From NCBI RefSeq assembly GCF_900092025.1, contig NZ_FLTX01000005.1, positions 62,001 through 126,000 on the forward strand: 64,000 nucleotides of DNA. Reading direction: 5' to 3'. Position numbers and translations under genes: made by a program. Shown piece by piece: positions 38,991-57,289 of the stretch. The notes under the pieces are model-generated. The model saw only the letters and a program-made list of their open reading frames with translations, searched no databases and had not been told where the DNA came from. This DNA comes from Xanthomonas bromi. GTDB lineage: Bacteria; Pseudomonadota; Gammaproteobacteria; Xanthomonadales; Xanthomonadaceae. Within the stretch, counting starts at the first letter, position 1. Every line of letters begins with the position of its first letter.

Positions 38991-39036
38991 TGCGCGCTTG
39001 CGAATCAGGCGCTGCGGCGGACTTCTGAGAATGAGG

Positions 39037-39146
39037 GTGGTGTCCCCGCCGGCTGACCTCGGCGCCCGCATCAATCGATACCGTTGCTGCCTTCCAGCCC
39101 TGGCGGGATTTTCGATCTAGCGTCGCGAGGGACCGACGGGGCCACC
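39037..39146 (-). ncRNA. ffs: Signal recognition particle RNA (4.5S, small bacterial type)
   Basis: Read on the minus strand it contains the conserved apical core AGGGCTGGAAGGCAGCAACG (GGAA tetraloop and asymmetric loop) flanked by long arms. The ends pair: the 5' GTGGCCCCGTCGG and the 3' CCGGCGGGGACAC form the closing helix. This is the SRP RNA that works with Ffh in membrane protein targeting. Ends are estimated from the pairing. It lies next to the left boundary of the island, and before insertion it neighboured tRNA-Ser(GGA). Confidence 0.88.
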
Positions 39147-39213
39147 ATAAGACGTGGACCATTGGCATGGCCCTGCGATTTGCGGCATTGGTGTCATTGC
39201 GCAAATCATGAAA

Positions 39214-39231
39214 CTGGCGGAGAGAGGGGGA
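39214..39231 (+). repeat. Left attachment site of the island
   Basis: CTGGCGGAGAGAGGGGGA, identical to 57196-57213. It is a detached copy of the tRNA-Ser(GGA) 3' end and sits 68 bases from the SRP RNA gene. Confidence 0.9.
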
Positions 39232-39765
39232 GGTACTGATCCCGCTCGAACGTCCTGGCTCTCCTACAGCCACGCAAACCAGGAAGGTGTCCTGCTTTGT
39301 GGTCCGCCATTGTAGCGGGTCTGGCACGCTCACCGCTAGCCTCAAAGTGGACAGATGCTTTCTCTCTTTTGCACGAGTCCCTATTCAAAATCTAGGTAAC
39401 GTCGAGGGGCTAGGAGCCAAGGCACGGGACAGACCGTGCTGGAGAGTTCCTGCATCTATCGGGAGGGGCGGGCTTGCCGGACTTCTCGCTAGACCCTAAC
39501 TGACGCTCTCGCTCCTCGCTTACAAGCTGAAGCAGTTTTGCTAGAGCATCTATCTTAAGCAGCATTTCAGAGGGAAACTGACTGATTGTAGCCAACCCTC
39601 TGCCTCCGCTGGAAATCTAAAGCTTGACATTTGTCTGCGTCCGTTTCCATCTGCTAGATAAGGTCAGGGCGAGGGCTGCATGAGGCCGGCTCCACCTCAG
39701 CAGTGGGCGGATGTGAACTATGAGATGATGACCCCGAGTGGGACAACGGAAGTCATGTATTAGCT
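39232..39765. other. Left end of the island before the DUF4062 gene
   Basis: 534 bases. A consensus -35, TTGACA, near 39625 may serve the DUF4062 operon, but a well-spaced -10 is not clear. A 61-codon minus-strand frame with a good ribosome site lies at 39410-39595. I see no other feature. Confidence 0.45.
39410..39595 (-). CDS. Possible 61-residue helical protein with TTG start
   Basis: Reads MATISQFPSEMLLKIDALAK, then LLQLVSEERERQLG, then a Ser/Pro/Arg-rich tail. Translation would start at TTG 39595 with GGAGG seven bases upstream, an unusually good ribosome site for a random frame. The first 35 residues look amphipathic and helical. No family recognised; could be an antitoxin-like peptide or chance. 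Confidence 0.3.
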   Translation of the reverse strand: MATISQFPSEMLLKIDALAKLLQLVSEERERQLGSSEKSGKPAPPDRCRNSPARSVPCLGS

Positions 39766-40419
39766 ATGTCAAAGTCCAGCAAAAAGGCAACGGGCACGCA
39801 GCCGCCAACTATCATGATCAGCTCGACTGTATATGGGTTTGAGGAGCTGCTGGATCGCATTTATGCGCTCCTGACCGAATTTGGCTACAACGTATGGTGC
39901 TCACACATAGGCACTCTTCCTGTTTATTCCAGTTTAAATGCTTTTGAGAGCTGTTTAAAGGCGGTGGAGGATTGTGATCTTTTCTTCGCTCTAATTACGC
40001 CAAAATATGGATCTGGAGTTGTAAAAGGTGAAATCTCTATTACTCACCAAGAGATCATTAAGGCGATTGAGCTAAATAAGCCTCGTTGGTTGCTGGCTCA
40101 TGATCATGTGATATTTGCGCGCACAATTTTAGCCGGTCTTGGTCACAAAAACCCAAAAGAGCGCTCCGAGCTAAATTTTAAGGGATCCCAAGTTCTGGAC
40201 GACCTACGAGTGATAGACATGTATGAAGCCGCTATTCGTAATGAGATTGAATTTGTGGATCGCAAGGGGAACTGGGTTCAAAAGTTTGTAAGTGATTCCG
40301 ACGCGCTTCGATACGCAACCGCACAATTCTACAGATTTCAAGAAGTTGAGAGATTTCTCAAAGAGCAGCTTGGCGATTCAAGGCGTGTAATGGAGATTGT
40401 TAGTGGGGGGGTTACATGA
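39766..40419 (+). CDS. DUF4062 (TIR-like fold) protein
   Basis: A 217-residue protein. Residues about 14-95 match the DUF4062 pattern: TIMISSTVYGFEELLDRIYALL, then CLKAVEDCDLFFALITPKYGS, then SITHQEIIKAIELNKPRWLL. DUF4062 belongs to the TIR/STIR-like Rossmann superfamily and usually sits at the N-terminus of bacterial and eukaryotic NLR-like proteins; here it is on its own with a helical C-terminal part. No catalytic Glu of NADase TIRs can be assigned with confidence. Its stop overlaps the next ATG by four bases, so it is made together with the AlbA_2/ATPase protein. Base composition is AT-richer than the core. Likely a sensor or effector of a two-gene defence or signalling module (inference). 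Confidence 0.8.
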   Translation: MSKSSKKATGTQPPTIMISSTVYGFEELLDRIYALLTEFGYNVWCSHIGTLPVYSSLNAFESCLKAVEDCDLFFALITPKYGSGVVKGEISITHQEIIKAIELNKPRWLLAHDHVIFARTILAGLGHKNPKERSELNFKGSQVLDDLRVIDMYEAAIRNEIEFVDRKGNWVQKFVSDSDALRYATAQFYRFQEVERFLKEQLGDSRRVMEIVSGGVT

Positions 40420-41801
40420 TCACCGCGACAGTCCAATCTCAAATCATGAAAGGGAAACAGAGTGGCGTAGATTTTATTGAAGACCCGATGGAGATTGATG
40501 AAATCTCTGCCACGGTATGCGGTTTTTTAAATGCGCGCGGTGGGGTTATTTTTGTTGGTGCAAACCAGGCTGGTGAAATTGTTGGAGTTGGAGAAGATCC
40601 TGAAAGCGTGCGTCGTCGATTGGAGTCGCAGCTAAAAGAAATGATTGCTCCAACAGCACTTTTTACACTTAGCGTTGATGTTCATCATGATCTTTCGATA
40701 ATTTCGATCGAGGTTCCTCAAGGTCGAGATGTTCCTTACGTAGTCGAGGGGCGTGTGTTTCTTCGATACGGTAAAGCCACGGTCGTGGCCGATCCCGCAA
40801 GGCTTCGAAAGTTGGTTCAGGTGCGGTCTATTGAAGCTGAGCGCTGGGAACGCCGTCCTTCTATGGGCTTAGGTGAAGAGGACCTCGATAATTCTGAGAT
40901 TGGATCCACAGTAGAGGATTCTGAAGAGACGAGCCGTTTTGCCTATGAGAAACCGAATGATATTTATTCAGTTTTGCAGCAGCTAGGCTTAACGATACGG
41001 GGTAGTCTAACTAACGCATGCGATGTTCTTTATTCTCGACGTCCGCCCGTCCGGCATCCTCAGTGCAGAGTGCGGGTTATACAATTTGAGTCTGATAAAA
41101 TTGGCGTAAGGTATAGTAGCGACCAATGGCTTGAAGGGCCTTTGGTGAAAATATATATGGAAATGATGGATCTGGTTGGTGCGCAAGTCCGCGTTCAAGC
41201 TTTTTTTGCACGAGGCGAGCATGTCCGTAAGGATATTGCCAATTATTCCATTGAAGCTCTGCGTGAAGGGATAGTCAATGCACTAGCTCACCGAGACTAC
41301 TCTTCGTTTTCTGGTGGGTTATCGGTGTCTATTTATCCCAGTCGAATTGAGGTTTGGAATTCGGGCCGCTTACCGCGAGGGATCAAGGTTGGTGACCTTG
41401 GAAAGCTTCATCCATCTATTCCTATAAATCCTGATATTGCTCACGTTCTATACTTGAGACGTCTGATGGAGCGCGTCGGGCGAGGAACGCAGAAGATCAT
41501 AGCTGCTTGTGAAGAATTAGGCGCCAAGCCTCCCAAATGGCAGGATAGTCCTTCGGGCGTGACTCTCACTCTTTATTCGGCACTAGATGCCGAGGCTGCG
41601 GAGCTAAGTCCCCGGCAGGCCTTGGTCATGGAGAAATTGCGTCCAGGCGACACACTTCGCCTCGCGGACTACATCGCGGACTACGAGGTCTCCGAGCGAC
41701 AAGCTCGACGCGATCTCAAGAGCTTGGAAGAAGCTGGCTTCCTCAAGCGATCAGGTCGTGCCCGTGCGACAATTTACCAGCGAACCGGTAGAACGATCTG
41801 A
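40416..41801 (+). CDS. AlbA_2 (Schlafen-type) DNA-binding / HATPase_c_4 / winged-helix protein
   Basis: A 461-residue protein of the family often mislabelled RecG-like. Residues about 15-125 are an AlbA_2 domain (VDFIEDPMEIDEISATVCGFLNARGG, VIFVGANQAGEIVGVGED, FLRYGKATVVA). Residues about 275-390 are a GHKL-type ATPase (REGIVNALAHRDYSSFSGG with the N-box asparagine near 288, RIEVWNSGRLPRG, LMERVGRGTQKI). Residues about 405-455 form a winged helix (LADYIADYEVSERQARRDLKSLEEAGFL). Such proteins are putative nucleic-acid-responsive regulators. It is translationally coupled to the DUF4062 gene and is followed by two iteron blocks that could be its binding sites. Confidence 0.85.
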   Translation: MITATVQSQIMKGKQSGVDFIEDPMEIDEISATVCGFLNARGGVIFVGANQAGEIVGVGEDPESVRRRLESQLKEMIAPTALFTLSVDVHHDLSIISIEVPQGRDVPYVVEGRVFLRYGKATVVADPARLRKLVQVRSIEAERWERRPSMGLGEEDLDNSEIGSTVEDSEETSRFAYEKPNDIYSVLQQLGLTIRGSLTNACDVLYSRRPPVRHPQCRVRVIQFESDKIGVRYSSDQWLEGPLVKIYMEMMDLVGAQVRVQAFFARGEHVRKDIANYSIEALREGIVNALAHRDYSSFSGGLSVSIYPSRIEVWNSGRLPRGIKVGDLGKLHPSIPINPDIAHVLYLRRLMERVGRGTQKIIAACEELGAKPPKWQDSPSGVTLTLYSALDAEAAELSPRQALVMEKLRPGDTLRLADYIADYEVSERQARRDLKSLEEAGFLKRSGRARATIYQRTGRTI

Positions 41802-41832
41802 GTATCCGGCCAAATCCGGCCAAATCCGGCCA
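41800..41832 (+). repeat. Iteron block A: 33-bp direct repeat of ATCCGGCCAA units
   Basis: Starts GAGTATCCGGCCAAATCCGG (41800-41819) and continues to 41832. It contains three ATCCGGCCAA-type units with a strict 10-bp period, one helical turn each. It is identical over 33 bases to block B and begins at the stop codon of the AlbA_2 gene (41799-41801). An inverted partial copy, TTTGGCCGATT, follows at 41838-41848. Confidence 0.92.
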
Positions 41833-41930
41833 CGTATTTGGCCGATTCGGTGTCAGTATGGCGCCCGTGTCATCCAAGTAAGTTTTTGATTTTGAAAGGT
41901 TACCCATCTTGACCTGTTGTGTTCTCTGTC

Positions 41931-41963
41931 GAGTATCCGGCCAAATCCGGCCAAATCCGGCCA
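41931..41963 (+). repeat. Iteron block B: second 33-bp direct repeat
   Basis: Identical to block A over all 33 bases, 131 bp downstream (start to start). Again three 10-bp units. The 98 bases between the blocks are AT-rich and contain GTTTTTGATTTTGAAAGG. Confidence 0.92.
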
Positions 41964-42065
41964 GGTTTCGCAGCTGCATATAAGTGTTTAGGAGCGACAG
42001 CTTGCTTCCTCTTTCGATTGGGCCGGCTGGACTGACATCCTTAATTCCATCGTTGAGACGTCTTG

Positions 42066-42446
42066 TTAGCTAGTCAGCTGCAGCCACAACACCAGCATGA
42101 CCATGGGGAGCCCGCTGAGCACCGAGCTGACCCAGAAAGCCCCCATGACAGTCAGCGGCGTCATGACCCACCACTGACCCCAAGAGAAGCCTTGGTCGCG
42201 CTGCCGAGCCGCGTAGGCCTCCTGCGGATACAACCGTTCCGCCTTTCGCAGTCCCCGCCAAGCCATCAACGGCCCGACGATGAAGCCGAACGGGCCCAGG
42301 AAGAGCAAGCTGAGCGAGAACCACCGGAAGAAGCGCGTGTGCGGCGTCAGGACTTTCTTGGGAGCGGCGCACAATGCGCCGTCCCCACCAAGCCCACCCA
42401 CGGTGTCAGCGGACGTTCCTGCCATCGAATCGGGTCGGGTCTTCAT
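42066..42446 (-). CDS. Small two-TM membrane protein
   Basis: A 126-residue protein starting at ATG 42446, which overlaps the stop of the upstream lipoprotein gene (ATGA). Residues 1-35 are polar; two hydrophobic segments at about 41-63 (RWFSLSLLFLGPFGFIVGPLM) and 92-121 (WVMTPLTVMGAFWVSSVLSG). The loop between them is basic and therefore probably cytoplasmic. No family recognised. Third gene of a minus-strand trio of envelope proteins. Confidence 0.65.
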   Translation of the reverse strand: MKTRPDSMAGTSADTVGGLGGDGALCAAPKKVLTPHTRFFRWFSLSLLFLGPFGFIVGPLMAWRGLRKAERLYPQEAYAARQRDQGFSWGQWWVMTPLTVMGAFWVSSVLSGLPMVMLVLWLQLTS

Positions 42447-45107: not shown

Positions 45108-46064
45108 TCAACGGTCACGCTCCTTTTCGGCAATATGCCGATGATATGAACATATCACCTCATCATATTCGTCCAGTCCAAGGGGCACTGAGCAAACCAA
45201 GCACTCTCTAGCCTGATGTTCGTAGCCACAAGCAAGGCACATCTGCTCTTCATAAACGTAAGCCTCTTCATCGCATTCGGGGCATGTTTCCAGCGGATCA
45301 GGCCCGCCATGCTTCACGGCCAGAAAGCTTGCTCCGGCAAAGTGATTGGGAAGTATCCGTCCAAGCCACTCCTGATTTGAGCTGCTATGACCGCAAGCTC
45401 TACAAGCCCACTGAGCTTCGAACGGATTCGTGTTTTGACGATCAAGCTGTCTGACAAGCTGCGAGCTACACTGGGGGCACCCCTCTTTCTTAACTGCTTC
45501 TAAGAGTGCCTCCGGTCCATCCATATTCTCATAGGATGATCGGCACTCTGCTCGAAGATGATCTTCAATTTCCTTCTCTTCGACCAGTGAAGCCCACGCG
45601 TCCTCATCTATTTCTTCCTGTGGATCGACACCTAAATGCGTCGGCATGAATTGAGAGAGGAACAGCAATCCATCAGCGAAAGCACCTCGAATCTGACCAA
45701 CATCATCAATGTGGTGATGCTCTACCTTGTTGCGAATGGCGGTGATTTGCCGCAAGAGCTGGGCATCCACATCAATCTTGCAGGATTTAAACCGCTCAAG
45801 GATATCGTTGACGTCCACTGTCGTATTTCCTGCTTTCCCAAAGACAACATGTCCGTCATCGTTAAGTAGTGGCTTCAGTTGCTTCCAAATCAATATCTCA
45901 TCGTCGGGTGATAATCGACGAAGCTTTTCTTTGCAAAGCAGCAGGATGCCTGCGGTTAGGTTGCGCACTGCGGAAGAGAGGCGCGCAGGTGAGCCATCGT
46001 TAAAGTCCTCAACGCCAACTTGGATAGCGTTGAGGGCATTGCGGTAGATTGGATCTTCAGCCAT
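45108..46064 (-). CDS. HEPN-motif protein with C-terminal zinc ribbons
   Basis: A 318-residue protein starting at ATG 46064 (AAGGA upstream; ATG 46091 is also possible). Residues 1-145 are helical and contain RNKVEH at 111-116, an Rx4H motif like the active site of HEPN ribonucleases, in the context AITAIRNKVEHHHIDD. The C-terminal half has ordered zinc pairs: CPQC 196-199 with CRAC 221-224, CPEC 261-264 with CLAC 276-279, and CLVC 288-291 with CSYH 305-308. This looks like a nuclease domain followed by nucleic-acid-binding ribbons. No antitoxin is adjacent. Family not recognised by name. Confidence 0.65.
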   Translation of the reverse strand: MAEDPIYRNALNAIQVGVEDFNDGSPARLSSAVRNLTAGILLLCKEKLRRLSPDDEILIWKQLKPLLNDDGHVVFGKAGNTTVDVNDILERFKSCKIDVDAQLLRQITAIRNKVEHHHIDDVGQIRGAFADGLLFLSQFMPTHLGVDPQEEIDEDAWASLVEEKEIEDHLRAECRSSYENMDGPEALLEAVKKEGCPQCSSQLVRQLDRQNTNPFEAQWACRACGHSSSNQEWLGRILPNHFAGASFLAVKHGGPDPLETCPECDEEAYVYEEQMCLACGYEHQARECLVCSVPLGLDEYDEVICSYHRHIAEKERDR

Positions 46065-46095
46065 GTCGCCATCCTTCAAAGATTCTTCCATCTCA

Positions 46096-47496
46096 TCAAG
46101 GATAGAACTTGCTGGCGTCGGACAACAATACGTGGAATTGCCCCCGCTGGTAGCGCGGCAGCTCGACGTTGGGCTGATACAGCTCCAAGGCGCTGATTTG
46201 CTTGCTTCGCGTCACCTGCGGTTTCTTGTGCAGGTAGTGCTGGCGCAAGACCTGGACCCGGTCGCGGGGATCGGTGCTGTGGCCCGTGACCAGGGCAATC
46301 TCCTTCTCTGGAACATCGTTGACATCAAGCTCGGTAGCCAGGGTGTGGCGGAAGGCGTGGAAGCCGATTCCTTTCGCGAAGCCCAGGCTCTTCAGGTAGC
46401 GCCCGAAGTCCACCACGAACTGCTGGCTGTAACGCGCATTGGTCTCCCCGGTGGTGCGGTTCACCCCAGCAGAGAGCAGCGGGAACAGCCGGGGGTGGCC
46501 CGTCTCCTTCATGTCCTCCACGAACTCGAGGAAGCCTGCCTCCAATAGCGGCTTAGCGATGGGGATGATGCGCATGCAGCCCGCGCCCTTCATGCTTTGC
46601 CTGCTGCGCCGTCGTCGCTTTGGGTCTGCGGCCAAGTCTTGGTCCAACGTCTTCTGGAAAGCAATGCACCAAACCCCGCGTTCCTCGATGATGTCGGCCA
46701 GCTTCAGCTGGCAGACTTCATTGACCCTGGCTCCGGTATATAGGCCGATCATCGGTGCCCACCAATACTGCGGTTTTTTTGCCCAGGGGATGAATGTCGC
46801 GGGGTCAAAAATGGCTTGCAGGTCTGCGTCCTCGAAGAGGCGGATGGCCTTGTCGGGATCGATGGTGTGATCTTCTTTGGGTTTCCGGAAGGCTTTCATC
46901 GGTGACACGTCGATGGCTTGTCCGTTGACCAAGTGGTTGAAGAAGGCGACCAAAAACCGGCGGTGTCGCTCCTCGGTGGCAGGCGCCAGCGGCGGCACAT
47001 CCTGCTCCTTCCCCATGGCGATGGCTTCGTCGAAGGTGAGATCCTTGAGCAGCGGATCCGACACCAGGTTCCTCGGAGCCCAACGCAGCAGCGTCCAGAG
47101 CGCTTGGATGTGGTGGTAGTCCACACGAGCTGCGGAGATATTGCCGCAGGTCAGCAGGAGCAGCTTCAACGTGCGCTCGGTGGACTGGACGGTCTTCGGG
47201 TCAAGCTGGCGGCGACGCATGTCCTCCAGATGATCCTCGATCTCCTTGGCCAGAGGGCGCGACGGGGTGCCCATAGGGAGCTGGGCCGGATAGCGTGTGC
47301 TGTTCTTAAGGCCGCTCTTTCGTCCCGTTTCGTCGAGCGCGGCGAGAATACATTCTTGGAGATTGATGGCCGCTTCCCGTCCCCGGATGATGGCGCGGTC
47401 GATGTGGAACCGCCCAACGTGGATGCCTTCCAAATGCAGGAGGCCGAAGGGCGATGCGATGTAATCGTTGAGTGCTGCGGAGGGTAGAGCGGTCAT
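46096..47496 (-). CDS. int: Tyrosine recombinase/integrase (internal copy)
   Basis: A 466-residue phage-type integrase. The catalytic residues are in place: TGARVNEVCQL (first Arg), HAFRHTLATEL (HxxR), GHST (third box) and a tyrosine in VLRQHYLHKKP. An SAM-like N-terminal core-binding region lies around 85-200. The protein looks complete. It sits in the middle of the island, far from both att sites, so it is probably a remnant from an earlier element or a second element fused in. No third copy of the att sequence is found near it. Confidence 0.88.
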   Translation of the reverse strand: MTALPSAALNDYIASPFGLLHLEGIHVGRFHIDRAIIRGREAAINLQECILAALDETGRKSGLKNSTRYPAQLPMGTPSRPLAKEIEDHLEDMRRRQLDPKTVQSTERTLKLLLLTCGNISAARVDYHHIQALWTLLRWAPRNLVSDPLLKDLTFDEAIAMGKEQDVPPLAPATEERHRRFLVAFFNHLVNGQAIDVSPMKAFRKPKEDHTIDPDKAIRLFEDADLQAIFDPATFIPWAKKPQYWWAPMIGLYTGARVNEVCQLKLADIIEERGVWCIAFQKTLDQDLAADPKRRRRSRQSMKGAGCMRIIPIAKPLLEAGFLEFVEDMKETGHPRLFPLLSAGVNRTTGETNARYSQQFVVDFGRYLKSLGFAKGIGFHAFRHTLATELDVNDVPEKEIALVTGHSTDPRDRVQVLRQHYLHKKPQVTRSKQISALELYQPNVELPRYQRGQFHVLLSDASKFYP

Positions 47497-47897
47497 GGGT
47501 CACTTCCATCGGAGATGGAAGTAGGGATATGACAGGACGAAAATCCGTCAATGGGGTCGATGCAAAAACTTGCAGTGTTGGCTGAGTCCTTAGGCGTTGA
47601 GGAATCGCCGCTGGGATGCTTCCCAGACTCGCCAATCTGTTATCTGGTGAGAAGCCTTATGGGCCAAAGGTTCGCAGCGAATTGAGGCCGATTTATCGCA
47701 GTCAATTGTGTACTGTTTGCAGGATTTTAGCTAACAAGACGCTTTAATCCCTCTTTCTGCTACCTGAATTAAAGTTAAACGAGGTGGGTTTATTGTTGGC
47801 ATGTTTTCAATCCTGCCTTAGCTAGTAGCTCTTCGCAGGCTAGCTGCTCGGTGACAGTCAACGTCATACTCTCCGCAACAGCTTCGGGGGGAGTGCA
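47497..47897. other. Spacer between the internal integrase and the ABC-type ATPase gene
   Basis: About 400 bases. AT-rich toward the right end (TAACAAGACGCTTTAATCCC...). It contains TAGCTAACAAGACG at 47728-47741, the reverse complement of 42059-42072. No gene is supported. Confidence 0.45.
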
Positions 47898-50132
47898 ATG
47901 ATTAGCGAGATATCGATCCTTAACCACAAGAGCTTTCACCCAACTCAGCCGACACGCATCTCTTTAGAGACTGAGGGCCGAAAGCCTGTGTTCTTCTATG
48001 GCCAGAACGGGGCCGGAAAGACGGCAATCGGTGAAGTGATACGCGGACTGGCTGTCGGTGACCCGAAATTCGCCGGCTGCCAGGTCACCACGGTAGGGGA
48101 AGGTCGGTTTAGGTTTCATATCTACAACCACGAGTTCGTCCAGTCTGTGATTGGCGAAGCGGATGGCATGCCAGGGATTTTTACTATTGGCGAGACGGAT
48201 GGAGCAACCCAAAAGGAAATAGAGCGGCAAGAGCAGATAAGCAGGGATGCGGACGAAGCGATTGAAGCTGCTCGCGTCGGTATCGAGGCCATTGATGGTC
48301 GCCTTGATAAGGCGCTGATTGCTGCACAAGACGAAACGTGGAAGGCCTATAAGGCCTATGATGCTGGCGAGTTTGCGGGCTACTTGAAAGGGTATGGGCG
48401 CGGAAAACCCAAGTTCTTTGAAGATCTGCGGAAGCTGCAGGTCTCGCCCGACGAGGAGTTGGACGACATAGGTGAGCTGATCAAGCGGCTGACTGACGTT
48501 TCCGGTGACGAGCAATCAAAGCCGAACCACTCACTCTCCACAAGTGGTTTCTCGTTGATAGAGGCCGATGATGTTTGGCAGGAGGCGGTGGAGGTCTCCA
48601 ATGACAGCAGCCTCTCTGCGCTCATTGAAACGCTGAAGAATGGAGACTGGGTTGATAAGGGTCGGTCCTTTGTTCAGGGCGATCAATGTCCTTTCTGCCA
48701 ACGAGGCCTGCCTCATGGGTTCATGGATGAGCTTGTGAGACTGTTTGAAGGCACGAGACAGGAAAAAATTGACTCCATTACCTCCCACGTGACCCGCTAC
48801 GCTACTGACGTATCCAGCCTAGAGCGCCAAATGGAGTCCGCCTTGGCGGAGCCGTTGGCTGATGAGACTGATCTGAAGGTAGCCTCCGAAGCTGTGTTAG
48901 CCAAGCTCAAAGCGAATCTAGCCACAATGCGGTTGAAGCAAGAGCACCCTGGAGAATCTTTCGAGGTAGCCAGGGTTGACATGGGTCTGATGACAGCAGC
49001 GCTGGATGCTCTAAATACGCGTATAGGGGACTTCAATCGACGGATCGCGAACAAGGGAGAGGAGCGCAAGGCAGTTGGTGAAGCCTTCTGGAAAATCCTG
49101 TATCGCGATCGAGCGCATGCATACACCTCCTACGATGCAGTGGTGGCGCCGCTCAATGAGCAACGGGGCGAGTGGGTCATCAAGCAGAAGGCCGCCTCCA
49201 GCTCAAAAAGCGATGCCGCTGCTGCGTTGGTAGAGCTCAAAAAGAACCAGGAGGGAGTTGACGCGTCCGTTGCCGCCATCAATACAAGACTCAAAGGACT
49301 CGGCATTGATACCTTCACCATTGACCGGAAGGCTGGAGAGGGCAGCCTCTACTGTCTGAAGCGTCCTGGCCTTGGTGAAAGCACGACTCAGTCTCTCAGC
49401 GAGGGTGAGAAGACGCTCATTTCCTTCTTCTATTTTATGGAGCTTCTAAAGGGTTCGGCGGAGCAGGGGCAGTCCATCGACTTGGCGCGGACCATCGTGG
49501 TCATCGACGACCCAATATCGAGCCTTTCGCACAACTATGTCTACGACATCGCGTCAGTCATCGCGCAGGAGTTGATCAAGCCGCCTGGTGGGCAGAAGGT
49601 CCGTCAAGTTCTTGCTTTAACTCACAACCTCTTTTTCCTGCACGAGCTCGTTCTTCAGCTTGGATACCGTGAATGGGCCACTGTGCCCAAAAAGTGCCAG
49701 CTGCTGCGCGTCGTAAAGAACGAGCGCAGCCAAGTCATGCCAATGAGCGGCCAAGAGTTCGCAAACGACTATGACGCACTTTGGCAAACCATCCGTGACG
49801 TTCGAGACGGACTGGTCCCTGTCCAAGTCATGCCTAATACAATGCGCTGCGTCGTGGAGACGTTCTTTGCCTTCACGGGCCGTAGGAAAAAGATGAGCGC
49901 AGTGCTGGATGAAATGTCCAAGGCGGATGCGACCTTCAAGCCTCTGGAGCGATATCTGCATCGAGGTAGCCACCGAGATGATGTCAACATTGCGCATGTG
50001 GACTGGGGGCAGTTCGATCTGAACTACTACTTCGCTAAGCTGGAGATGCTGTTCGACAGGGCAGGGCACCAAGACCATTTCAAGATGAAGATGGGTTTGG
50101 TAGAAGTTGAAGAGACTGACGGCGACGATTGA
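47898..50132 (+). CDS. ABC-type ATPase of the AAA_13 class, RloC/PrrC-like anticodon nuclease candidate
   Basis: A 744-residue protein. Walker A GQNGAGKT at 35-42; a long helical middle with one CPFC at 264-267, like the zinc hook of Rad50 and RloC; ABC signature SLSEGEKT at 499-506; Walker B TIVVIDDPISSLSH at 532-545; switch histidine at 576. The C-terminal 100 residues contain RCVVE at 650-654 (RxxxE) and a histidine at 692 in HRGSHRDD. PrrC/RloC nucleases use an Arg-Glu-His triad in an RxxxE...H layout, so a tRNA anticodon nuclease is a reasonable hypothesis. No restriction-modification genes are adjacent, unlike PrrC. GGGGGGAG ribosome site before ATG 47898. Confidence 0.75.
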   Translation: MISEISILNHKSFHPTQPTRISLETEGRKPVFFYGQNGAGKTAIGEVIRGLAVGDPKFAGCQVTTVGEGRFRFHIYNHEFVQSVIGEADGMPGIFTIGETDGATQKEIERQEQISRDADEAIEAARVGIEAIDGRLDKALIAAQDETWKAYKAYDAGEFAGYLKGYGRGKPKFFEDLRKLQVSPDEELDDIGELIKRLTDVSGDEQSKPNHSLSTSGFSLIEADDVWQEAVEVSNDSSLSALIETLKNGDWVDKGRSFVQGDQCPFCQRGLPHGFMDELVRLFEGTRQEKIDSITSHVTRYATDVSSLERQMESALAEPLADETDLKVASEAVLAKLKANLATMRLKQEHPGESFEVARVDMGLMTAALDALNTRIGDFNRRIANKGEERKAVGEAFWKILYRDRAHAYTSYDAVVAPLNEQRGEWVIKQKAASSSKSDAAAALVELKKNQEGVDASVAAINTRLKGLGIDTFTIDRKAGEGSLYCLKRPGLGESTTQSLSEGEKTLISFFYFMELLKGSAEQGQSIDLARTIVVIDDPISSLSHNYVYDIASVIAQELIKPPGGQKVRQVLALTHNLFFLHELVLQLGYREWATVPKKCQLLRVVKNERSQVMPMSGQEFANDYDALWQTIRDVRDGLVPVQVMPNTMRCVVETFFAFTGRRKKMSAVLDEMSKADATFKPLERYLHRGSHRDDVNIAHVDWGQFDLNYYFAKLEMLFDRAGHQDHFKMKMGLVEVEETDGDD

Positions 50133-52095: not shown

Positions 52096-53697
52096 ATGGC
52101 CATCTACCACGCCAACGTCAAGACGTTTAGTCGCGCCAAAGGACATTCGTCCATCGCTGCGGCCGCCTATCGTGCCGGCCTGCTGCTGGAGGACGCGCTA
52201 ACCGGCTTGCGCCACGACTACCGCCGCCGGGACGGCGTCGTCGAAACGCGCTGCATCGCCCCCGAGGACGCGCCCGATTGGGCCCTGGTCCCCGCTGAGC
52301 TCTGGCCGGCTGCGGAGGCTGCTGAGCGCCGCAAAGATTCGACGGTCGCGCGTGAGTTCGAGTTTGCCTTGCCGCACGAACTCGATGACCTTCAGCGCTC
52401 CGATCTGGCCGTGGAAGTCACCCGTGCTCTGGTGGGTCGCTACGGGTTCGCGGCGCAGGCGAGCATCCACAGCCCAGGCAGCAAGGACGGCTTGAACTGG
52501 CATGTCCACGTCCTGGCAACGACTCGGCGCATGGGTCCGGACGGTCTCACGGACAAAACCAGGGAACTGGACGGCGGGCCCTCGGGACGTGTCGAAGTGC
52601 AATGGGTGCGCGAACTCATTGCATCCACCATCAATGCCCACCTTGAGAAGGCCGCGCTTGAGCTTCGCGTGGACCATCGCAGCCTAGCCGCTCAGGCCGA
52701 CGACGCTTTGGCGCGCGGCGACCTGGCCGCGGCTGCCGTGCTCTCCCGGGAGCCCACCAAGCACGTCGGCAAAAACGGCACGGCGTTGGCCCGGCGGGGC
52801 CAGCCGTCGGAGCGTTCGGACGAGAACCGTCGAATCGAGGAAACCAACGAGGAGACCTTCCAAAAGCTCATCGCCGTGTTTGAGCAGGAAGGGCGCGCCA
52901 TGCCGGTGCCCGACGGCCACAGCCAGGCCCAGGCCGAGCGCGAGGCTCGCCGACCTTCTGATGGGCTGTCCTTGTCGCTCGGGCCTGGGGCAGGGCACAT
53001 TGAGGTGTCCCGCAGCATGGCGACCATTGCCCGCGGGCTGGGACTGATGGAGGCGGAGGAGGCCAAGCCGTCGCGCGAGCCACGTTCGGTCTCCGAGCTC
53101 GCGGAGGAAGCCAGCGACGAATGGGGAGTGGCTGTTCAAGCGGATCCCCGCTTGGCTCAAACGCTCCAAGCAACCCAGCGCCTGTTGCAGTGGATCAGGG
53201 AACACGTGGCTGCCTTCGCCGAAGAGGCCCGGCTGCGCCCGGACCTCAACGAGTTGCTCCGTCGACTGCGGCGCTTCAAGGCAGCGATCATGAAGTTCGC
53301 CCGGCGGCTCTTGGCGGTGCGCCGAGCGGAGAAGCTGCACCACATGGCCGAGAACGCGTGGCACGACTTCCTGGCGAACAATCCCGAGCCGGGGACCTCA
53401 TGGACGCAAGGAGACTGGAAGCAGCGGCGCGGGCGTCGGTTGAGCACCCTCGAAGCCCGAGCCGCAGAGCTGGCCGATGCAAGGGCCCGGGTGACCCCGG
53501 AGGAACAAGCCCTCTGCGAGAAAGAGGCGTCGGCCAGCGCGGCGCACCTGGAGGCCTGGAGCTGGGACATGCTCCAGCGCTACCCCCTCCAACTCGACGT
53601 GGCGAACCAGCCCGATGGACCGCGTCCAGGTCCTGCCATCTCGGTCCCTCCTGCCCCTGCACCTGTCTATGTTCCCAAGCCGCCGCGCTTCCACTGA
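52096..53697 (+). CDS. mobA: MobA/MobL-family relaxase (MOBQ)
   Basis: A 533-residue DNA relaxase/nickase. It begins MAIYHANVKTFSRAKGHSSI and AAAAYRAGLLLEDA, the classical MobA start, with the nucleophile tyrosine presumably Y4 or Y25. The histidine motif GLNWHVHVLATTRR (HxH) is near residue 138-142. The C-terminal part is helical, charged and ends in a proline-rich tail. It would nick oriT to allow mobilization in trans by a conjugative helper. ATG 52096 is the natural start; the frame is open back to 51982, but that would run over oriT. Confidence 0.9.
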   Translation: MAIYHANVKTFSRAKGHSSIAAAAYRAGLLLEDALTGLRHDYRRRDGVVETRCIAPEDAPDWALVPAELWPAAEAAERRKDSTVAREFEFALPHELDDLQRSDLAVEVTRALVGRYGFAAQASIHSPGSKDGLNWHVHVLATTRRMGPDGLTDKTRELDGGPSGRVEVQWVRELIASTINAHLEKAALELRVDHRSLAAQADDALARGDLAAAAVLSREPTKHVGKNGTALARRGQPSERSDENRRIEETNEETFQKLIAVFEQEGRAMPVPDGHSQAQAEREARRPSDGLSLSLGPGAGHIEVSRSMATIARGLGLMEAEEAKPSREPRSVSELAEEASDEWGVAVQADPRLAQTLQATQRLLQWIREHVAAFAEEARLRPDLNELLRRLRRFKAAIMKFARRLLAVRRAEKLHHMAENAWHDFLANNPEPGTSWTQGDWKQRRGRRLSTLEARAAELADARARVTPEEQALCEKEASASAAHLEAWSWDMLQRYPLQLDVANQPDGPRPGPAISVPPAPAPVYVPKPPRFH

Positions 53698-55602: not shown

Positions 55603-57111
55603 TCAACCAGCCTTTCGTTGCTTTGAGGAGCTGGACTGCGGGGCCATCAGAGCGCGAAGGGCCGATATATTTAGCCCATAAGCAAGCACGGCTAGCCCCG
55701 GCGACACACCCCGGAGTCCGTCCAGCTTCTCCTTGGGGGTAAAGGCTCGGCTGTAGGTCACGTGGTGCTCGTCGTCCAACTCGTGGCCGACCAGCTGGGC
55801 GCGGAGCTCGGACACCACGCCCGCGCCCTGCAGCTCCTGGATCAACGTCTTGCGCAGCGAGTGGAAGCCGCGCTTGGCCTTGGGCCAGTTCTTGCCCACC
55901 TCGGCCAGGTGCCTGCTGAAGGCTTTGGAGATCCAGTTCCCCTGGCCGTTCTTGGCATCGGCTTTGGCCGCCGGGAACAAGCGCTCCTGTCCTTTGGCCC
56001 GCGCCTGCTCGACCCAGTCCAGGAAGCCCAGGGCAAGCAGGTCGGGATGGACGGGCACCGTCCTCAAGCTCACGTCTGTCTTCACCTTTTGATACTCGCC
56101 TTCATCCGAAATCTGGATACAGGGAATACCGCCGTCCTCGATCACGTCGGCGGTTAGCAGTTGGCCGACCTCCGAGGCGCGGGCGCCGGTATAAAGCCCA
56201 AGGAGGGAGGCCCACCGGGCTGCCAGGGGCAGGGCTTCAAAAGCAGCCGACGCGAACAGGGCCTGGACCTGGTGGGCGTCGTAGGCCTTGAACCCGAACT
56301 TGCGCCTGGCCCGCTTCTCGCGGGTGGAGTAGCTCACGTGACCGGAAGCCGGGTTGTCGCCCCGAGGGTAGTGGCCTGAGGCCTGGGCCCACTCAAAGAA
56401 CCCACCCTTGCCCCCGATATAGCTCTGCTTATTGGTCAGAGTCGGGGTGGAGGCACCTTTGTCGCGCATGTCTTGATACCACCGGGCCAGGTCCGAACGG
56501 GTGACCGTGTGCAGCTTGGTCTTCTCACCAAGGAAGCTGGTCAGCAGTTCGACAGCGGTCCGCTTGATGGTCCAGGTCTTGGGCAGGGTGCTGCCCTTGA
56601 GGCTGTTCAGCCAGGCGTCTCGGGCCTTCCCGAGCGTGATTGATTCGAGGGAGGGTTTGGTTACCCGCCTCGGCGTGGGGAGGGGAGGCACGTGTTGTTG
56701 AATCAGCTCCCCCAGCGCGCTGGGCTGCGGGGCGGTGAGCGCCATCAGCTGCTGGAAGAGCGTGACGTCCTCTGGGGTGTCGATCTGCCATTGCTCGGTG
56801 ATCGACCCGTCCGCCGAGCGCGTCCGATTCAAGGTCAGCTCCTGCGGGCGTTGGGTGCCGGTCAGGCGCGCCAGAAGCGCGTCCAGGTCGTCGTCTTGGC
56901 TTTGCATGCGTCGGTCCCTCAACACAGTGAAGACCTGAGCATAGCGGGCGGCCAGCGTCAGCGCGCGCAGTCTTGCCTCGCGCATGTCGTAGGTGTGCAG
57001 GGTGCGTTTGAAGGTCTGGCGACCCACGATGGGCTGCAAATCGACCGGCACACGCTGTCGGTATGACCAGAGTCCGGAGGGGGCTCGAACGAGATGATGA
57101 GGAATGCGCAT
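55603..57111 (-). CDS. int: Tyrosine integrase next to the tRNA-Ser attachment site
   Basis: A 502-residue integrase. An N-terminal DUF6538-like segment (MRIPHHLVRAPSGLWSYRQRV), a core-binding domain (about 165-270), and a catalytic domain with TGARASEVGQL, HSLRKTLIQEL (HxxR), VGHELDDE and a tyrosine in VTYSRAFTPKEK. Its start is 85 bases from the right att site, the usual position for the integrase that inserted the element. It is therefore the active candidate for moving the island. Confidence 0.92.
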   Translation of the reverse strand: MRIPHHLVRAPSGLWSYRQRVPVDLQPIVGRQTFKRTLHTYDMREARLRALTLAARYAQVFTVLRDRRMQSQDDDLDALLARLTGTQRPQELTLNRTRSADGSITEQWQIDTPEDVTLFQQLMALTAPQPSALGELIQQHVPPLPTPRRVTKPSLESITLGKARDAWLNSLKGSTLPKTWTIKRTAVELLTSFLGEKTKLHTVTRSDLARWYQDMRDKGASTPTLTNKQSYIGGKGGFFEWAQASGHYPRGDNPASGHVSYSTREKRARRKFGFKAYDAHQVQALFASAAFEALPLAARWASLLGLYTGARASEVGQLLTADVIEDGGIPCIQISDEGEYQKVKTDVSLRTVPVHPDLLALGFLDWVEQARAKGQERLFPAAKADAKNGQGNWISKAFSRHLAEVGKNWPKAKRGFHSLRKTLIQELQGAGVVSELRAQLVGHELDDEHHVTYSRAFTPKEKLDGLRGVSPGLAVLAYGLNISALRALMAPQSSSSKQRKAG

Positions 57112-57195: not shown

Positions 57196-57213
57196 CTGGC
57201 GGAGAGAGGGGGA
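57196..57213 (-). repeat. Right attachment site inside tRNA-Ser(GGA)
   Basis: The 18 bases are identical to 39214-39231. Read on the minus strand they form the last bases of the tRNA (part of the T arm, 3' acceptor strand, discriminator and CCA) plus one base beyond. Confidence 0.92.
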
Positions 57214-57289
57214 TTCGAACCCCCGAAGCGCGGTTTAGACGCTTACACACTTTCCAGGCGTGCTCCTTCAACCACTCGGACACCTCTCC
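57197..57289 (-). tRNA. tRNA-Ser (anticodon GGA), island target
   Basis: 93 bases with a long variable arm. The acceptor GGAGAGG pairs with TCTCTCC including one G-T pair, the anticodon loop CTGGAAA carries GGA, and CCA is encoded. The gene remains intact after insertion because the island brings an identical 3' end. Confidence 0.95.

Follow-up and report, generated by a model that had tools for sequence, protein, structure and literature searches.

A stretch of 64,000 nucleotides (nt) from Xanthomonas bromi (contig NZ_FLTX01000005.1, positions 62,001 to 126,000; hereafter the window) carries a gene for a free-standing, TIR-like DUF4062 protein and, overlapping its stop codon, a gene whose product joins an AlbA_2 (Schlafen-type) domain to a GHKL ATPase domain and a winged helix (Table 1). 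The features of this pair suggest that it is probably a two-gene abortive-infection module, in which the DUF4062 protein would be an NAD+ hydrolase (NADase) effector and its partner the sensor and brake. An initial annotation made from the letters of the window had reported two such genes joined by an ATGA, and both open reading frames (ORFs) were confirmed there with their 4-nt overlap. It had also spoken of a possible undescribed defence or signalling module. Linkage, coupling, neighbours and mobility all speak for a conserved defence or conflict module, but the DUF4062 family itself has already been characterized.

The DUF4062 gene product matches PF13271 at 58.1 bits against a cut-off of 24.7, and this is its sole Pfam match. 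The partner matches SLFN_AlbA_2 (54.5 bits, cut-off 25.3), HATPase_c_4 (59.6 bits) and HTH_DeoR (23.9 bits), all above their cut-offs. The G+C content is 0.448 for the DUF4062 gene and 0.494 for its partner, versus 0.652 for the moa genes at the left and 0.669 for dnaX at the right. At an E-value of 0.01 the DUF4062 protein has no match among PADLOC models, and neither protein matches a Ths model. PADLOC matches of the partner to pAgo and SIR2-APAZ (25.6–40.6 bits) are confined to the AlbA_2-to-HATPase region, and a Pfam scan of this protein found no PIWI or MID domain.

Using only the DUF4062 protein as query, we scanned 84,980 species genomes by pattern, a search that picks up close relatives. 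It returned 17 loci with 51–75% identity from several bacterial phyla and archaea. At all 17, tblastn placed an AlbA_2 partner directly downstream on the same strand, so that the linkage in other genomes proposed as a check by the initial annotation was borne out. Taxa given in the record titles are Mesorhizobium, Caulobacter, Burkholderiales, Rhodocyclaceae, ‘Betaproteobacteria’, ‘Deltaproteobacteria’, Spirochaetes, Bipolaricaulota, Eisenbacteria, Pontiellaceae, one unplaced bacterium and Methanomicrobiales-type archaea; any one of these labels could be in error, since metagenome bins make up 15 of the 17. The 4-nt overlap is present at 14 of the 17 scan loci, and at 16 of 21 when the window and extra loci are included, the remaining junctions being one 11-nt overlap and four gaps of 3–22 nt. 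The pair is also present on a Hymenobacter plasmid (L023), an A. baumannii plasmid (L024) and one IMG/VR contig (L025). The A. baumannii partner is annotated as a ‘Fic family protein’ and matches HATPase_c_4 and Fic-like_C above cut-off and AlbA_2 below it.

Both AlbA_2 and HATPase_c_4 were found in 18 of 18 pair members at an E-value of 0.01, and the two proteins have diverged in step. After removal of three rows with incomplete DUF4062 (L019–L021), their pairwise distances correlate with a Mantel r of 0.90 (15 loci; 0 of 10,000 permutations), and with an r of 0.73 (12 loci; again 0 of 10,000) when the near-duplicates L010, L011 and L013 are also removed. Some copies are altered. The DUF4062 protein of Caulobacter zeae (L019:7995-8507) may be inactive because about 50 N-terminal residues are missing; its AlbA_2 gene and repeat array are retained. 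On the IMG/VR contig (L025:7950-8599), DUF4062 is split over two frames next to an open AlbA_2 gene, either as a broken copy or through an assembly error. On the A. baumannii plasmid pC9_4 (L024:1984-3025), a 166-amino-acid (aa) ORF similar to the C-terminal half of the DUF4062 family lies ahead of a DUF4062 gene that has no match to the C-terminal profile, and the enzyme may there be divided between two genes.

The pairing seems, from the genomes compared, to belong to this clade of DUF4062 proteins. In the family of the source organism, 4 of 297 genomes match the DUF4062 protein, namely its own and three with single-gene frames of 429–432 aa; the other same-genus genomes sampled have no match. 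A profile of the pair's DUF4062 finds 2 of 398 genomes of the phylum, its own and one that matches weakly in a 402-aa frame. No AlbA/HATPase gene lies near any of 29 general DUF4062 loci (L070–L098), and a thirtieth, L124, has the HATPase domain fused. The broader proposition that any AlbA_2/HATPase gene has a DUF4062 neighbour was rejected. No such neighbour is annotated for any of eight plasmid AlbA_2/HATPase relatives (23–28% identity), and the DUF4062 profile was negative at E 1e-4 within about 1.5 kb of 29 further AlbA_2/HATPase loci from 398 genomes (L100–L128), although it cannot exclude distant DUF4062 neighbours because it missed the fused DUF4062 of L124, which was found by the Pfam model alone.

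The enzyme half of the pair is already known, since bacterial DUF4062 proteins have been shown to be TIR-like NADases, named Swarozyc, in a preprint of May 2026 (PMC13174449). On infection these proteins deplete NAD+ via a conserved Glu, and they sense through a helix-turn-helix (HTH) or winged domain; one of them, KpSwz, is activated by the phage portal and hydrolyses NAD+ plainly to ADP-ribose and nicotinamide, and the bacterial enzyme studied in detail stays inactive until triggered (PMC13174449). The residue E96, in the motif SITHxE, is invariant in 18 of 18 pair members. In 30 other DUF4062 proteins the same column holds Glu in 26, a gap in 3 and His in 1. We equate E96 with E97 of KpSwz by family logic rather than by comparison with the KpSwz sequence. 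The statement in the initial annotation that DUF4062 is usually an N-terminal NLR domain does not hold for a bacterial sample, where open frames of 330–430 aa account for 18 of the 40 listed matches and frames longer than 800 aa for 9. Sequence searches with the DUF4062 family among solved structures gave no match by profile and two chance matches by single sequence (E 0.6 and 1.3). An invariant GNWVQKF segment, located in a low-confidence loop of the model (160–183), was considered as the partner interface, a proposal weakened by the occurrence of GNWIHVF in the single-gene DUF4062 loci L004 and L005.

In the partner protein, residues E284, N288, H292–Y295 and G355–G357 are invariant in 18 of 18 pair members. 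The active site of Schlafen nucleases consists of three acidic residues, E205, E210 and D248 in rat SLFN13 (accessible text of PMC5862951). When these columns are set by profile alignment to solved Schlafens, the window copy has K14, D19 and N50/Q51, and its RNase triad is thus lost. The triad is likewise missing at L006 and is intact in 11 of 18 partners. A single ORF at L124 (808-2331), between two type I methylase genes, has the order DUF4062-HATPase_c_4-HTH_DeoR with no AlbA_2 match; it is followed by AATCGTCCGAT repeats of its own with irregular, partly 11-bp spacing, and residues 3–411 are matched at 30% by an ORF on a Legionella anisa plasmid. Because the Glu is invariant in 18 of 18 members, the triad is lost in the window copy and a DUF4062-HATPase-winged-helix fusion exists, DUF4062 is probably the killer and its partner the sensor or brake. 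It had been noted that AlbA_2/ATPase proteins usually stand alone, which is too simple: two of the eight plasmid relatives directly precede the R subunit of a type I restriction enzyme, and Schlafen-histidine kinase-winged HTH proteins linked to BREX are described as RNase or back-up effectors in the accessible text of PMC12839542.

An array of short repeats lies just 3′ of the pair. Generally it comprises two clusters of 10–11-bp repeats, about 100–130 bp apart, whose units vary by lineage. The unit ATCCGGCCA of the window is found at the equivalent place in L006 and L019, whereas units elsewhere are CCGGACA (L007, L009–L011, L012 and L013), AGGACAT (L017) and GGGCTCA (Hymenobacter L023). The 29-base cluster pattern occurs only twice in the whole source genome, as cluster 1 and cluster 2. 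The stretch marked by the initial annotation ends exactly where the second cluster does, but the array itself went unmentioned. The common layout, filled by different units, resembles a private site at which the winged helix might bind.

Several counts bear on this array. On both strands, from −60 to +300 of the stop codon, 9 of 10 loci of the class hold 5–9 exact copies of CCGGNCA versus 0.0–0.6 expected from the remainder of each sequence; L017 has none in this interval. Exact 8-mers exceed all 300 shuffles at 9 of 19 loci scored, and 4 of 160 random windows hold an 8-mer three times; L011, L017 and L023, where units are few or imperfect, do not exceed the shuffles. We also applied a strict layout test, framed after the arrays had been seen, that requires an exact 6-mer in two pairs at 10–11-bp spacing, the pairs being 85–150 bp apart. 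It is passed by 8 of 11 loci of this type (the window, L006, L007, L009, L010, L011, L013 and L023) and failed by L012, L017, L019 and the L124 fusion, each of which contains near-copies. Elsewhere, none of 1372 windows from control stretches passes, nor does any of 33 other AlbA/HATPase genes; 2 of 1418 other windows of pair loci do.

Loci with a Fic-like_C partner form a separate class in this respect, as none of nine (eight pair loci and A. baumannii L024) passes the two-cluster test. Seven of these eight pair loci, L018 being the exception, have repeated 8-mers inside the gene, in a TEVT/PEVT linker. At L008 the unit CCCAGGAAGT recurs within the gene in two codon phases, which suggests that DNA rather than peptide is kept. 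In L007, L011, L012 and L017 the second 3′ cluster lies about 20–40 bp ahead of the start of the next ORF. Upstream of the pair, L009 and L010 have two CCGGNCA copies 72–107 bp before the operon, and L019 has one at 264 bp; the 300 bp ahead of DUF4062 hold none in the window, L006, L011, L012 and L013. An RNA reading of the 3′ element is disfavoured, and a DNA element preferred, because the sequence separating the clusters shows no conservation and folds are unremarkable in two relatives (z-scores of +0.7 for L006 and −0.8 for L019; −2.5 for the window). Rfam finds no RNA in 39000-42400 except a signal recognition particle (SRP) RNA at 39043-39139.

Repeats extend into the wider AlbA_2/HATPase family, where 9 of 34 genes (a set that includes the partners at L023 and L024) exceed all 100 shuffles in their last 330 bp plus the following 300 bp. 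One of the nine, an AlbA_2/HATPase gene on an IMG/VR contig (L065:2560-2640), has seven tandem 10-bp TTACTGGCGG units directly 3′ of it. Intragenic 12-bp tandem repeats were seen between the HATPase domain and the winged helix at L100, L104, L106, L110, L111 and L122 and in other AlbA_2/HATPase genes, encoding peptides that differ (TPGK, GEKW, PVNV, QPES and TTGK). It is possible that such repeats are a general feature of genes with the AlbA_2-HATPase-winged-helix architecture.

At 12 of the 17 scan loci, a known or candidate defence family of PADLOC occurs within about 8 kb of the pair (Table 1), some of these matches being partial ones to helicase or methylase families that do not imply whole systems. 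No defence match was found among the neighbour ORFs scanned at L010, L013, L015, L019 and L021, several of which are short contigs. A control scan at E 1e-10 of 56 ORFs from 14 arbitrary stretches gave mad3 three times, mad8 once and AriA once, with no restriction genes. The enrichment for defence neighbours that the initial annotation anticipated is accordingly visible, but it is indicative and carries no matched statistic, because the 58 neighbour ORFs were picked by hand from 122 called and the controls, picked by rule, come mostly from the window's own genus and class.

The pairing, overlap, matched divergence, conserved Glu and GHKL residues, triad loss, fusion, defence neighbours, mobility and array are all observed here, and together they are consistent with the following mechanism. 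Coupled translation would co-produce the DUF4062 protein and its partner. In the resting cell the partner, seated by its winged helix on the array just 3′ of the operon and gated by ATP, would hold DUF4062 silent. Binding of ATP by the GHKL domain and of nucleic acid or a phage product by AlbA_2 would form the switch that releases or assembles the NADase, and DUF4062, once free to oligomerize, would hydrolyse NAD+ with Glu96 and destroy the NAD+ pool of the infected cell. Candidate triggers are the portal, as for KpSwz, a restriction complex that fails or an array that is damaged. NADase activity and abortive infection are attributed to the pair by analogy with the published relative, whereas we infer the role of the partner, the binding of the winged helix to the array and the nature of the trigger. 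A more specific version is improbable: the partner would sit on its private array, and loss of this seat through phage DNA degradation, takeover or modification would license the NADase. If so, lineage-specific repeats would be private landmarks for the integrity of the system's own DNA, read by a self-DNA sensor wired to cell suicide.

The same effector could answer to another trigger, as PrrC guards a type I restriction enzyme. The partner would then guard a restriction or other primary defence complex and unleash DUF4062 when a phage inhibitor disables it. Type I restriction-modification (R-M) genes do occur at 5 of the 17 loci; at L016 the pair sits between HsdM and HsdS, a 4-nt overlap joins the L124 fusion to the stop of one methylase gene, the second coming after it, and the BREX back-up effectors described in the accessible text of PMC12839542 include Schlafen-histidine-kinase-winged HTH proteins. 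However, no restriction gene was found adjoining the pair in the window, L010, L015, L019 and L021, so that general dependence on one partner system is unlikely, and we regard the back-up role as possible but unlikely overall. A toxin-antitoxin system that maintains the element, with DUF4062 as toxin, the AlbA_2/winged-helix protein as antitoxin and regulator and phage defence as a secondary effect, would suit an overlapping two-gene operon found on a mobile island and on plasmids, and a DNA-binding domain beside a repeat array with some upstream copies (L009, L010 and L019). In a type II toxin-antitoxin system a cognate DNA-binding antitoxin neutralizes the toxin, and the operator stands where the operon begins. 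Yet the main array is 3′, five loci lack CCGGNCA within 300 bp upstream (see above) and the DUF4062 enzyme studied in detail is inactive before its trigger (PMC13174449), which leaves this explanation rather doubtful.

Two further readings alter the chemistry. DUF4062 might convert NAD into a messenger, and the AlbA_2 protein, switched on by it, would act as a Schlafen-type RNase, in the manner of Thoeris; TIR enzymes are capable of making messengers (PMC13174449) and the triad positions are intact in many partners. Against such signalling, the triad is missing in the window copy and L006, the natural fusion at L124 has no AlbA_2 match and KpSwz is reported as a plain NAD+ hydrolase (PMC13174449), and we consider it quite improbable. 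It is very improbable that DUF4062 is here a DNPH1-like nucleotide N-hydrolase that destroys deoxynucleotides instead of NAD+: the family is reported to resemble both folds distantly and yet to be an NADase (PMC13174449), and the Glu motif is common to other DUF4062 branches.

The abortive-infection module proposed here would, by analogy, work like Swarozyc, with which it shares a DUF4062 domain with the conserved Glu, location in defence islands, patchy mobile distribution and an HTH or winged module. Its architecture differs, because Swarozyc is a single chain of DUF4062 and a C-terminal auxiliary domain (PMC13174449), whereas in the pair DUF4062 is free at 217 aa, the winged helix belongs to a separate AlbA_2/GHKL protein outside the DUF4062 chain, and a 3′ repeat array is present. 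The terms AlbA, Schlafen, HATPase and GHKL are absent from the main text of that preprint. The BREX-linked Schlafen RNase-histidine kinase-winged HTH proteins share the domain order AlbA_2-HATPase-winged HTH and the defence linkage, but are RNase effectors in the accessible text of PMC12839542, whereas here a DUF4062 gene is paired and the window copy lacks the triad. Thoeris (ThsA/ThsB) also combines a TIR-fold enzyme with a second protein, and pair locus L006 is near a Thoeris locus; the partner here, however, is AlbA_2/HATPase_c_4/HTH (GHKL) and not SIR2-SLOG. Unlike SPARTA (TIR-APAZ with short pAgo) and SPARSA, the pair has no Argonaute (MID-PIWI) in its partner. Antiviral proteins of the SAMD9 family join AlbA_2 to a SIR2-like domain, but the accessible text of PMC5445408 describes one long protein with a STAND P-loop ATPase and no DUF4062. 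The claim that no characterized system has this composition stands in part: literature searches on DUF4062 and AlbA_2 found no published description of the split two-gene form, but DUF4062 has been a known NADase since the May 2026 preprint (PMC13174449).

Recognition of DUF4062 proteins as NADases is recent, both in bacteria and for human TEP1 of the vault. In the pair, enzyme and likely switch are set apart in a cross-phylum, two-gene form that is genetically dissectable. It also ties the widespread and poorly understood AlbA_2-HATPase-winged-helix proteins to a defined effector, and the array, with its common layout and lineage-specific units, offers a testable candidate DNA ligand for them.

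The pair had been said to open a mobile island, and this proved correct. An 18-bp direct repeat, CTGGCGGAGAGAGGGGGA, marks both ends of the island, the right-hand copy lying at the 3′ end of a tRNA-Ser(GGA) gene, and in three same-genus genomes the left flank runs into the right flank through a single CTGGCGGAGAGAGGGGGA copy. Among 35 same-genus genomes, the source included, the flanks are less than 1 kb apart in 15, 7–36 kb apart in 10 (again including the source), 1.9 Mb apart in 1 and on separate contigs in 9. The repeats and these empty sites therefore identify the pair as the first cargo of an 18-kb element, and the tRNA-Ser(GGA)/moaE-dnaX site is an integration hotspot.

Table 1. Features of the pair and island (positions in the window), and defence families near pair loci in other genomes
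Feature	Position	Strand	Basis or remark
Island left end, 18-bp direct repeat CTGGCGGAGAGAGGGGGA	39214..39231	+	blastn vs tRNA-Ser end and three empty sites
Free-standing DUF4062 (TIR-like) protein	39766..40419	+	217 aa; predicted NADase effector; invariant Glu96 in SITHxE
ATGA stop/start overlap, translational coupling	40416..40419	+	Sequence
AlbA_2 (Schlafen-type) + middle region + HATPase_c_4 (GHKL) + C-terminal winged helix	40416..41801	+	461 aa; predicted sensor/brake and DNA binder
3′ repeat cluster 1, three ATCCGGCCA(A/C) units, 10-bp period	41804..41832	+	Sequence repeats
3′ repeat cluster 2, three ATCCGGCCA(A/G) units, 10-bp period	41935..41963	+	Starts 131 bp after cluster 1 start
Candidate defence protein PDC-S64 in island	45108..46091	-	PADLOC 145 bits; no Pfam match
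Second tyrosine integrase, inside island	46096..47496	-	Phage_integrase 40 bits
AAA_13 ATPase, 744 aa, candidate stand-alone defence protein PDC-S06, in island	47898..50132	+	PADLOC 699 bits; Pfam AAA_13 343 bits
MobA/MobL relaxase inside island, start codon not settled	52096..53697	+	Pfam MobA_MobL 149 bits
Tyrosine integrase beside tRNA, probable island integrase	55603..57111	-	Phage_integrase and DUF6538 above cut-off
Island right end, CTGGCGGAGAGAGGGGGA copy at 3′ end of tRNA-Ser(GGA) 57197-57289 (-)	57196..57213	+	blastn
L006 neighbour: Thoeris ThsA and ThsB			PADLOC
L007 neighbour: DruE-like helicase			PADLOC
L008 and L018 neighbours: DrmMII/type II methylase; Vsr too at L018			PADLOC
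L009, L011, L012, L016 and L020 neighbours: type I R-M; Old/AriA-like gene too at L012			PADLOC
L014 neighbour: DpdF-like helicase			PADLOC
L017 neighbour: PDC-S19			PADLOC
L022 neighbour: HNH restriction-type enzyme			PADLOC

The AAA_13 protein assigned to PDC-S06 also shows weaker similarity to PrrC and AriA. The small SRP RNA gene, on the minus strand, lies just beyond the left end of the island. Within the island, an imperfect inverted repeat (34 nt, 74%) at 42059-42092 and 47708-47741 brackets the inner integrase, PDC-S64 and DUF3800 genes, and these repeats are possibly the ends of a second, nested element.

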